Assembly: GCA_016190205.1 (NCBI GenBank) | Contig: JACPQZ010000076.1 | Coordinates: 1-64,000 of the forward strand | Reading direction: 5' to 3' | DNA from: Candidatus Omnitrophota bacterium | Lineage (GTDB): Bacteria; Omnitrophota; JACPQZ01 | Length of the DNA: 64,000 bases | Shown here: one piece after another, positions 36,050-63,675 of the stretch | Position numbering within the stretch: the first letter of the stretch is position 1 | Layout: the number at the start of each line of letters is the position of its first letter | Position numbers and translations under genes: made by a program | The notes under the pieces: model-generated | What the model was told of the DNA's origin: nothing | The model's input: the letters and a program-made list of their open reading frames with translations, nothing else | Database searches by the model: none

Positions 36050-36063
36050 TCGATTACTCCTTC

Positions 36064-36216
36064 GGTTATCGGTGTTCGGTGCTCGGTTATCGCAAGAAAA
36101 AGAAATATTATGAGCCTTCAGCCGTCGGCTATCTGCCTTGGGCTTTTGCTGATGGCTGATGGCTGATAGCCAACAGAGTTTGCGAGCACCGATAACCGAT
36201 CCACGATCACCGAATC
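36064..36216. repeat. Two-layer quasi-palindrome of short words
   Basis: An outer layer of CGGTTATCGG-type words (36064-36094) is mirrored by GCACCGATAACCGAT at 36184-36198, and an inner layer of GAGCCTTCAGCC words (36112-36137) by GCTGATGGCTGATGGCTGATAGC (split across 36150-36173). It fills the gap of about 450 bases between the AT-rich membrane gene and tRNA-Asp. No credible gene lies here. A plus-strand frame at 36159-36377 runs through this repeat and the antisense of tRNA-Asp. Confidence 0.6.
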
Positions 36217-52734: not shown

Positions 52735-54306
52735 TCAGATGGAACTGACAATTTTGTATTTTTTGGCCTTGTAACCTAAAATGCGTTCCGTGATGCCCAG
52801 CATCTTCGCCGCGCGGCTTTGATTTCCCCGGCTCGTGTTTAAGGCTTCCTGGATGAGCCGGGCCTCCAAAGCCTTTACAGAATCCGTCAGACTCAACCGG
52901 CCCGCGTTCCCCTCATGAAACCGTTCCTCGGCATAGTGCGGCACAACCTTATGCCTTATGTTGGAGGGTAAATCCCTCCTGCGGACGACGTGACCCTCCG
53001 CCATCACCACCGCCCGCTCCATGCAGTTTTCGAGCTCTCTGACGTTTCCAGGCCAGGGGTAGGTGATGAGGACATCCATTGCGTCCTGGGCCGGGCGCTC
53101 TACCGCCTTCCCATGTTCCTTCCCGGAGCGGCTGATAAAGTAATCGACGAGCTCCGGGATATCCTCCCTGCGCTCCCTTAAAGGCGGAAGGTAGATGGTG
53201 ATGACGTTCAGGCGGTAGTAGAGATCCTCTCGGAACCGTTTCTCCCGCACCTCCTGATCGAGGGGACGGTTGGTGGCCGCTATGATGCGCACGTCCACCT
53301 TGATGGTCTCGGTCCCTCCCACCCGCTCAAATTCGCGCTCCTGCAGCACCCGCAGCATCTTCACTTGGGCGGCCAGCGTGAGATCCCCTACCTCGTCCAG
53401 AAAAAGGGTCCCCCCATGGGCGAGTTCGAAACGACCGGGTTTTCTGGCGAGGGCCCCCGTGAACGCCCCCTTTTCGTAACCGAAGAGTTCGCTCTCGAGG
53501 AGGGTCTCGGGGATCGACGCTGCGCTTATTCTGACAAAGGGTCCGTCCGAGCGCGGGCTCATGTAATGGAGGGCGCGTGCAATAAGCTCCTTTCCCGTTC
53601 CGCTCTCTCCTAAAAGCAGCACGGTAGCCTTGGAGCGGGCGCATTGATGGACGACGCGAAAGACGTCCTGCATGGCGCGGCTGGACCCTATGATGTTCTC
53701 GACATGGTAGCGGGTCTTGAGCTGCCGGCGGAGATCTGTATTTTCTTCTTCCAACCTGACGTGCTCCGTACGGACCTGCTGCCTCAAACGGACCGCCTGG
53801 GCGATCATAGAGGCGATGGTCGCAAGGAGGCGAACGTCCTCCTGCAGAGACACGGGCTGCTCAAAGAGCCTGTCCACGCTTAGGGCCCCAATCGTCTTAC
53901 CGGCATATTTGATCGGAACACAGATGAAGGCGATGGTCTGCCGGGAGAGATCTCCGCGGGACCGCGTCCGGTTTAGGAAAAGGGGTTCCTTCCCGATGTT
54001 GGGGATTGCGATCGGTTCGCCCGCCTCCACCACCTTGCCCGTGATCCCCTCGCCCAGCTTATACCGGCCCCGCCGCATTTGCCGCCGGTCCATGCCCTTG
54101 GCCGCCTCGATCATGATCTTCTGGGTCTGGGGGTCCAAGAGCGTGAGTGTTCCGCGCTCCATGCCCATTTCCCGGGCGAGGATATCCAGCACCGAGCGCA
54201 GGACATCGAGCTCAAGCGAGGAGGCCAGGGCCTGGCTGATTGAATGCAGGACATTGAGCTCTTTAAGCCCCTGGCGTAACTCGCCGTTCTTAAGATGATC
54301 GGTCAT
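52735..54306 (-). CDS. NifA-like sigma-54-dependent transcriptional activator
   Basis: A 523-residue activator, starting at ATG 54306 with AAGG five bases upstream (longer frames reach into repeats). GAF domain at about 20-170 (GERGTL..., then [19 protein letters not shown]), AAA+ domain at about 200-430 with Walker [14 protein letters not shown], the sigma-54 contact loop GAFTGA, Walker [11 protein letters not shown], and a C-terminal Fis-type helix-turn-helix ([20 protein letters not shown]). This architecture is that of NifA and similar GAF activators. The neighbouring glnA suggests nitrogen control, yet no nif genes or sigma-54 promoter are visible here. Confidence 0.92.
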
Positions 54307-54328: not shown

Positions 54329-54640
54329 CGTGATTCGTGTTTCGTGATTCGTGAAACGTAGTTGACGACTTGAGTAACCAGAAACCAGCAACCAGATACC
54401 AGAAGATTCCAGAGACCAGATACCAGAGTGATACGATAAAATTCGAAATACGAAACTCGAAGCACGAAGCAAATTCGAATGACCGAAATTCAAAACTCGA
54501 AAACGGTTGTTTTGAATTTCTGATTTCGAATTTCTAACTTGCTTCTAATTTCGATCTTCGAATTTCGTATTTTTTCTGGTTACTGGTATCTGGTATCTGG
54601 TTTCTTTTTTTCACGATTCACGATCAACGATCCACGAACC
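54329..54640. repeat. Three-layer mirrored array of degenerate short words
   Basis: From outside in: CGTGATTCGTG words (54329-54358) mirrored by CACGATTCACGATC words (54610-54640); ACCAGATACCAG words (54376-54426) mirrored by CTGGTTACTGGTATCTGG (54576-54603); and ATTCGAAATACGAAACTCG words (54440-54480) mirrored by TCTTCGAATTTCGTAT (54554-54572). The centre is at about 54505. Each word differs slightly from its copies. It occupies nearly the whole gap between the activator and lpxI genes. Confidence 0.75.
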
Positions 54641-55455
54641 TACACTGCGACAATGCACACTCCCCGGGTGTCGGCTTCACAAAGCACCCGCTCACGTTCC
54701 AGGATGAGGGTCTCACCCGCCTCAATGGCGAGGACGCCTGTTTGGGCGTCGGCGAGCGCCTGAACTGTCTTTAGACCGATACAGGGAACATCAAATCGCA
54801 CATCCTGTTTCGCCTTGCTTACCTTGACGATAACGATCCCCGGGCCCGCCACCTGAAAGGCGCGGCGGATCATGTCATCCGTTCCCTCCATGGCCTCCAC
54901 CGCGACCACGGCCTTGGCCTTTACAGCCACTGCCTGTCCGACATCCAGGGCAGAGACCTTTTTGGCCAACTCGAACCCAAAGCGGATGTCCGCTTCCTGC
55001 TCCGGTGATGGGTTTCTCCGCGTCAAAACCCCCCTCGATGGGATGAGATCGCTCAAGTACGTCTTTGAGCTCAAGAGGGTAAGGCCCTTCCTGGCCAGAT
55101 ATTTGGCGACAGCCTTGAGCAGGGTGTCCGCCCGCTTATCCGGCGCCGTAGCCAAGATGAAGGCGAGGGCCGGATCGGGTTTAAAACCTGAAAAGAGTTT
55201 TTTATGTTTTATCTGCCCGGCCATCACAACATCCGTGACCCCCTCGGACTTCAAATATTCTGTCAGGCGTTCGAGATCCGTGACCTCGATCCAGTGTACC
55301 TTGTCTGCGAGCTCCTCGATGCCGCTCTCGGTCTCACCCCGCACAGCGACCGCCACCACCCGATGGCCGCGCTCCCGCGCCTTGCCCGCAAAAATCAGCG
55401 GGTATTGGCCGTTTCCGGCGATCAAACCGATCGTTTTAGGAGCTACTTTTTGCAT
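54640..55455 (-). CDS. lpxI: UDP-2,3-diacylglucosamine diphosphatase LpxI
   Basis: Hydrolyses UDP-2,3-diacylglucosamine to lipid X, replacing LpxH. The 271 residues match the LpxI (DUF1009) family: IAGNGQYPLIFAGKARERGH, VMAGQIKHKKLFSGFKPD, AGPGIVIVKVSKAKQD, RFDVPCIGLKTVQAL and TGVLAIEAGETLILER. Upstream is lpxA, so the genes of the pathway follow each other, separated here by a quasi-palindrome. Confidence 0.93.
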   Translation of the reverse strand: MQKVAPKTIGLIAGNGQYPLIFAGKARERGHRVVAVAVRGETESGIEELADKVHWIEVTDLERLTEYLKSEGVTDVVMAGQIKHKKLFSGFKPDPALAFILATAPDKRADTLLKAVAKYLARKGLTLLSSKTYLSDLIPSRGVLTRRNPSPEQEADIRFGFELAKKVSALDVGQAVAVKAKAVVAVEAMEGTDDMIRRAFQVAGPGIVIVKVSKAKQDVRFDVPCIGLKTVQALADAQTGVLAIEAGETLILERERVLCEADTRGVCIVAV

Positions 55456-55462
55456 GCGTGTG

Positions 55463-55534
55463 TGATTCGGGATCCGGGAAGCGGGAACAGGGAACCGCCA
55501 CCGCTTCCCGCTTCCCGTTTCCCGGTTCCCGAAC
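55463..55534. repeat. Quasi-palindrome of GGGAAGCGGGAAC words
   Basis: GATTCGGGATCCGGGAAGCGG and GAACAGGGAACC (55463-55496) are mirrored by GCTTCCCGCTTCCCGTTTCCC and GGTTCCCGAAC (55503-55534). It lies in the 86-base gap between lpxA and lpxI. The words differ from those of the other arrays but the architecture is the same. Confidence 0.6.
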
Positions 55535-63016: not shown

Positions 63017-63091
63017 CTATCAGCTTTCAGCTTTCAGCTATCAGCTATTAGCTATCAGCTTTCAGCTAACGGCTGAAGGCTGAAGGCTGAC
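63017..63091. repeat. Array of CTATCAGCTTTCAG words between rplI and dnaB
   Basis: About six tandem, slightly varied TATCAGCTTTCAGC words (63017-63066) followed by three mirrored CGGCTGAAGGCTGAAGGCTGAC words (63071-63091). It fills the gap between rplI and dnaB and ends 10 bases before the dnaB Shine-Dalgarno. Confidence 0.65.
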
Positions 63092-63551: not shown

Positions 63552-63675
63552 CGATCGTTCTTCGTTCATCGTTCTTCGTTCTTCGTTCTTCGTTCGACAA
63601 CCCGGGTATTTGACATGGATTTCATTTTTTTGCTGTTACGAAGCACGATGCACGATGAACGAAGCACGTCGTGCC
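63552..63675. repeat. Mirrored TTCGTTCTTCGTTC words between rpsR and rplI
   Basis: Four to five CGTTCTTCGTTC words (63552-63596) are mirrored by ACGAAGCACGATGCACGATGAACGAAGCACG (split over 63638-63668), with an AT-rich centre. It fills almost the whole gap of 138 bases between the two ribosomal protein genes. Confidence 0.6.

Follow-up and report, generated by a model that had tools for sequence, protein, structure and literature searches.

The closest known relatives of the DNA analysed here are the intervening sequences (IVSs) of 23S rRNA genes that carry an open reading frame (ORF) for the intervening-sequence protein (IVP, or S23p). In Coxiella, Leptospira and Brucella these display a terminal inverted-repeat stem, tandem heptads and an IVP ORF in the loop; they sit in helix 45, a hairpin of the rRNA, and have been described as rRNA-specific (PMC4990558). 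The Coxiella IVS has a 28-bp terminal stem with tandem GACAGAT heptads ahead of the ORF, and the IVP-family protein of X. campestris is a four-helix-bundle pentamer with no assigned activity (PMC4990558).

Bacterial heptad repeats have been noted repeatedly, with no accepted cause so far. Heptad arrays of cyanobacteria, Xanthomonas and Beggiatoaceae (GGGNATC, PMC4692102; TAACTGA, PMC4679880) resemble those reported below in their 7-bp period, intergenic location and multiple copies and, for GGGNATC, in a preference for about four units (PMC4692102). They differ in being mainly direct repeats, explained by slippage, G-quadruplex formation or regulation, and neither report links them to IVP or to nesting. 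In Geobacter metallireducens, dozens of sites with ~3-5 repeats on opposite strands at variable spacing were read as protein-binding sites, with neither nesting nor IVP reported in the part of PMC2700814 available to us. The P6b stem-loop of the Nostoc trnL intron likewise has a length-variable degenerate-heptad stem (TDNGATT or NNTGAGT) that has repeatedly been replaced blockwise, although it lies inside a group I intron and holds no ORF (PMC4476775). Miniature inverted-repeat elements (MITEs) and the Drosophila foldback elements (Galileo) share non-autonomy and long, internally repetitive terminal inverted repeats; as far as the accessible portion of PMC3573991 goes, they are instead driven by known DNA transposases and have no heptads or IVP. 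The Geobacter sites, the TAACTGA and GGGNATC arrays and the Nostoc P6b stems have so far been described separately (PMC2700814, PMC4679880, PMC4692102, PMC4476775). Searches of open-access literature gave no publication that appears to join these repeat families or to report nesting, a subscription or preprint description being possible.

In the window, the whole 64,000-nucleotide stretch of DNA analysed, one intergenic spacer contains, at 54329-54640, three nested heptad palindromes, of the CGTGATT, ACCAGAT and CGAAATT types. The spacer and its two flanking genes are organised as follows:

52735 to 54306, minus strand: flanking gene for a sigma-54 activator with GAF, AAA+ and Fis-type HTH domains
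54329 to 54363: outer palindrome, left arm, word CGTGATT
54373 to 54427: middle palindrome, left arm, word ACCAGAT, four heptads, a 3-nt phase break (AAG) and three heptads
54439 to 54506: inner palindrome, left arm, word CGAAATT
54507 to 54572: inner palindrome, right arm, word AATTTCG, the centre lying near 54506
54573 to 54610: middle palindrome, right arm, word ATCTGGT, shorter than in sister copies
54611 to 54640: outer palindrome, right arm, word AATCACG
54640 to 55455, minus strand: flanking gene lpxI

The words run from CGTGATT, outermost, through ACCAGAT to CGAAATT, innermost, and are followed by their reverse complements in reversed order. The three mirrored layers of the original prediction were thus found, and the coordinates of each were confirmed, while its unit of 9-12 bases proved wrong, the words being degenerate 7-mers with 4-5 fixed and 2-3 variable positions. 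Folding, which had been proposed as a check, was run on both strands and surpassed every one of 100 dinucleotide-preserving shuffles, with z of -10.7 for the DNA fold and -11.9 for the RNA fold. The array is internal to a 116-kb contig, not at its end, and similar nested arrays, 86-91% identical across about 220-330 bp, lie elsewhere in the genome; an assembly artefact, raised at the outset as a possible refutation, is unlikely for these two reasons, and the homologous arrays that had been sought genome-wide exist. The longer ORF of the sigma-54 activator, to 54465, is a spurious read-through of the array, and a coding function was rejected, the ORFs that span the array being spurious extensions. 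An Rfam search gave sub-threshold chance matches to microRNA hairpins and nothing else.

Terminal inverted repeats and the potential to form a long stem are features that the array shares with the IVS/IVP class. Unlike 23S rRNA IVSs, the window elements are intergenic, contain no IVP ORF (PF05635) in the loop and are nested in one another; the array lies between lpxI and the sigma-54 regulator rather than in an rRNA hairpin, and a search for the home-genome 23S gene with RF02541 gave no match. Relatives that do carry the gene occur in the same genome. In the loops of two ACCAGAT palindromes the DNA reads as the start of an IVP, and a family search revealed five PF05635 genes in the home genome, four of which lie within heptad palindromes of four different words. 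At one locus, L150, a complete IVP-bearing element is found about 1.2 kb away from an internally deleted copy that retains its two arms together with the ORF ends (L150:1414-1886 and L150:169-399, respectively), so the ACCAGAT family displays the relation between internal-deletion derivative and autonomous copy that is expected of a MITE. The left arm of the middle layer in the window can be aligned gap-free with an arm of the L150 IVP-bearing element (about 45 of 55 positions identical, counted by eye) and both share the same 3-nt phase break. Since the window copy lacks an IVP that its same-family relative at L150 carries, it is classed among the non-autonomous relatives and is not regarded as an IVS itself. 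No IVP-bearing member of the CGAAATT family was found in the home genome.

The layers of the window array recur in other settings. The window itself contains a second nested composite and three solo palindromes:

36062 to 36213: CGGTTAT palindrome whose loop contains an AGCTATC/GGCTGAT palindrome
55464 to 55533: solo palindrome between lpxI and lpxA, word CGGGAAC/GTTCCCG
63017 to 63090: solo palindrome, word AGCTATC, the family nested in CGGTTAT elsewhere
63554 to 63668: solo palindrome, word ACGAAGC/GCTTCGT

Elsewhere, ACCAGAT palindromes are solo or enclose CGAAATT, a CGAAGGT-type word or non-heptad DNA, while AGCTATC palindromes are solo, inside CGGTTAT or inside CGAAATT. Because families are found both solo and in other combinations, the layers are separate modules. 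In a 420-kb sample, 98 complete palindromes with unmixed arm order and 3 more of mixed order were identified, and polarity is fixed in every word family (98/98 unmixed palindromes). When two complete palindromes lie in one cluster, they are nested in 24 cases, side by side in one and crossing in none, a mirrored order beyond that expected by chance, as had been anticipated for the window array. Counted by distinct family pair, the figures are 7, 1 and 0, respectively; some composites are copies of one another (86-91% identity) and have spread as units, so that the number of independent nesting events is below 24 and nearer 7.

Seven is the preferred period throughout the genome. In 420,565 bp of the home genome, comprising the window and 20 further stretches (about a quarter of the genome), 233 period-7 arrays were detected, compared with 0-12 at any other period from 4 to 20 except 14 and about 2 in Markov shuffles; many of these stretches were picked for matches to the window elements, which biases the array density upward and leaves the period-7 specificity unaffected. 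Arrays were labelled with 17 word families, at clustering thresholds set by eye, and each word has 4-5 nearly invariant positions, the other 2-3 being variable. Approximate gene calls place ~86% of the heptad bases outside genes, mostly in intergenic DNA between co-directional neighbours. Array length peaks at 30-33 bp, about four heptads. A G-quadruplex origin of this four-unit preference, as put forward for GGGNATC (PMC4692102), was rejected: words without G-tracts also peak at 30-33 bp here. Neither are these simple slippage-only repeats, in which direct tandem copies have no inverted partner; the 98 palindromes have one, and some heptad clusters are without a detected inverted partner. The order of word variants along the arms is mirrored in some families (mean percentile 0.94 for CGAAATT) and only weakly so in several others, in which some arms may have expanded independently. 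The home genome is a fragmented metagenome-assembled genome (MAG), in which contigs C71, C60, C37, C74 and C12 start in or near nested heptad composites, so the elements probably interrupt the assembly and are undercounted.

The association of IVP genes with inverted heptad arms extends well beyond this genome. The IVP loci retrieved for these comparisons were selected by highest score, not sampled at random. In the home phylum, heptad arrays lie on both flanks of 21 of the 27 IVP loci, against 0/27 lpxI control loci, and the mean inverted-repeat score is 21 and 11, respectively. A set of 36 IVP loci, drawn from the home phylum, other Omnitrophota, CPR and KSB1, has arrays of period 7 on both flanks at 29/36 and arrays of period 5, 6 or 8-13 on both flanks at none. 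IVP genes between heptad arms were found in KSB1, CPR, Bacteroidota (both flanks at only 11/28 loci) and cyanobacteria, the last accounting for most plasmid-borne IVP genes (heptad arms at 9 of the 12 loci inspected). In a comparison of 84 loci, left arms resemble the reverse-complemented right arm of their own locus (0.80) but not those of other loci (0.53). Arms and IVP are inherited together, in that IVP relatedness predicts similarity of the heptad word (Mantel r 0.23, p 0.0005); the relation holds across phyla (Mantel r 0.14, p 0.019) on the assumption that the home phylum and the Omnitrophota MAGs form one group. Densities of IVP and of heptads are correlated over 34 genomes (rho 0.54, p 0.0009). 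Both this association and the nesting are well supported. In cyanobacterial plasmids of different genera, IVP elements were also observed between CRISPR genes (cas6/cas4; cas10/cmr3; loci L226, L229 and L232).

Presence and absence of elements at the same position was observed in replicons other than that of the window. Three plasmid sites, on Nostoc, Calothrix and Picosynechococcus plasmids, contain an element in one record and lack it in another. In Nostoc plasmids, a TraM-domain gene and a hypothetical gene are separated by an empty spacer of 51-52 bp in three replicons. Two others have an IVP with GGGAACA arms at this place, one has a heptad palindrome lacking the gene, and one more has an AATTCAA-type palindrome. 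The nrdB/nrdA and cas10/cmr3 spacers likewise hold an insert in one record but not in a relative. Insert boundaries differ among these sites, and those inspected display no consistent target-site duplication. On plasmid p057_H of Nostoc sp. C057 (L242), compared with L240, a nested AATTCAA-type insert is flanked by TTAATAGTCA and TTAAATGGTCA, which may represent an imperfect target duplication. The heptad-armed type does occur in rRNA: on plasmid AZO_p2 of Azospirillum lipoferum 4B, a 23S rRNA gene (RF02541) contains an IVP with GAGGACG heptad arms (L227), and the AZO_p1 copy of the same strain, with identical flanks, presents the 19-nt hairpin GTGTGATCTTCGATCACGC at the exact position of the element. 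In this pair the hairpin was replaced, rather than interrupted by a clean insertion.

These data are best explained if the three nested palindromes at 54329-54640 are MITE-like and non-autonomous, and belong to a class of IVS/IVP elements that accumulate in hairpin loops, those of their own kind included, a reading we regard as probable. The class would have inverted arrays of a degenerate heptad as its ends and, in the complete form, a gene for the IVP/S23 four-helix bundle in the loop, which is the plan of the 23S rRNA IVSs. Elements would preferentially enter the loops of hairpins or palindromes, where DNA may be single-stranded or extruded, as at the rRNA hairpin; a newcomer landing in the loop of an older element would generate the order A-B-C-C'-B'-A'. 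IVP may bind its cognate arm and take part in mobility, acting in trans on copies that lack the gene, and slippage could change the heptad copy number while the arms remain able to pair. No nuclease, recombinase or reverse transcriptase (RT) domain is evident in IVP, whose relatives of known structure, 2gsc and 2rld, are four-helix-bundle pentamers without an assigned activity, and no reverse transcriptase (RVT_1, PF00078) was found in the home genome. The part proposed here for IVP is inferred, and the protein may simply be carried along by the hairpins rather than mobilise them. Insertion at a palindrome centre, one of the two routes offered by the original prediction, is supported by the reuse of families solo and in combinations, by nesting at the centre, by the enclosed IVP genes and by the filled and empty sites, of which one is at a 23S rRNA hairpin.

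Under the second route offered there, template switching at a hairpin, or under foldback replication, the palindrome would have been built and extended in place, with slippage producing the heptads and with no mobile element. This reading finds some support in the mirrored arm order of families such as CGAAATT, in templated inverted insertions reported to arise by foldback at breaks (PMC11724301), and in earlier proposals of heptad slippage (PMC4679880, PMC4692102). In-place growth does not predict that the same palindromes recur at unrelated loci, solo and in other combinations, that they enclose IVP genes or that a site may hold an element in one record and lack it in the next, and we consider it unlikely as the origin of the array. 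Modular reuse of the layers is left unexplained by template switching, which may nevertheless contribute to growth or upkeep of the arms.

An improbable alternative is that the arrays are selected regulatory or RNA-processing sites, either protein-binding heptads or hairpins cleaved by RNase III, in which nesting reflects the need to pair. Words that hold 4-5 positions and vary at 2-3, the strong RNA fold of the window array and the prevalence of intergenic locations between co-directional genes are all consistent with such a function, as are the paired opposite-strand heptad/octad arrays of G. metallireducens, read as global-regulator sites (PMC2700814). Against this reading stand the lack of relation among the flanking genes, the many unrelated words in one genome, the presence of a gene of the element's own and the polymorphism of the cyanobacterial sites. 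In addition, purging of unpaired insertions would permit side-by-side palindromes as well as nested ones, and a single one was seen.

A REP/REPIN-like nature of the palindromes, with Y1 (RAYT) transposases moving them, is very improbable: they are short, dispersed and intergenic and the genome has four Y1_Tnp genes, but none of the four Y1 loci is flanked by inverted heptad arms and the heptads track IVP instead, so these transposases were rejected as movers. Among the four Y1 (RAYT/IS200-like) genes, L103-L106, at least L104 and L105 have non-heptad flanking palindromes of their own, e.g. GACACACATGTGTGTC and GGGGGTCAGGTCTTGCATTATCACAT.

The reading as nested members of the IVS/IVP class can be widened. 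Elements composed of IVP and heptad arrays would then be widespread mobile elements without a recognised transposase, in which IVP reads its cognate arm and which enter DNA at hairpin loops; rRNA IVSs would simply be those that happened to insert into rRNA, and many unexplained heptad repeats of bacteria, including LSSRs, TAACTGA, GGGNATC and the STRRs, which belong with the heptad arrays of cyanobacteria, Xanthomonas and Beggiatoaceae, would be element remnants. Taken jointly, these propositions are plausible but fall somewhat short of probable. The link between IVP and heptads offers one testable explanation for the heptad repeats, for the origin and spread of rRNA IVSs and for the role of the very common 'four helix bundle protein', and nested mirrored DNA would be the trace left by one insertion after another into the loops of hairpins.

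Palindromes of other kinds were also observed within, around or next to heptad arrays. A GC-rich palindrome, with a GGCGGATCCGCC core or of CCGCC type, interrupts CGAAATT-type arms off-centre, whereas the heptad elements sit at centres, at three places:

L093:15289-15582: off-centre GC-rich palindrome in a CGAAATT arm
L092:6373-6660: off-centre GC-rich palindrome in a CGAAATT arm
L090:19563-19825: off-centre GC-rich palindrome in a CGAAATT arm

In another genome of the phylum, L042:1364-1560 provides a third nested example, in which a CACAGATT-type layer encloses a CGAAATT-type palindrome with a non-heptad core, the palindrome GGTTCAAAGGATGGTGAGCCTGTCGAACC. In an Omnitrophota MAG (L099:1740-2010), a GTGTCGCAATT palindrome encloses a CGTCATTGCGAGGAG palindrome and adjoins an ACCAG heptad palindrome. 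The arrangement of palindrome within palindrome may be common to other kinds of repeat as well.
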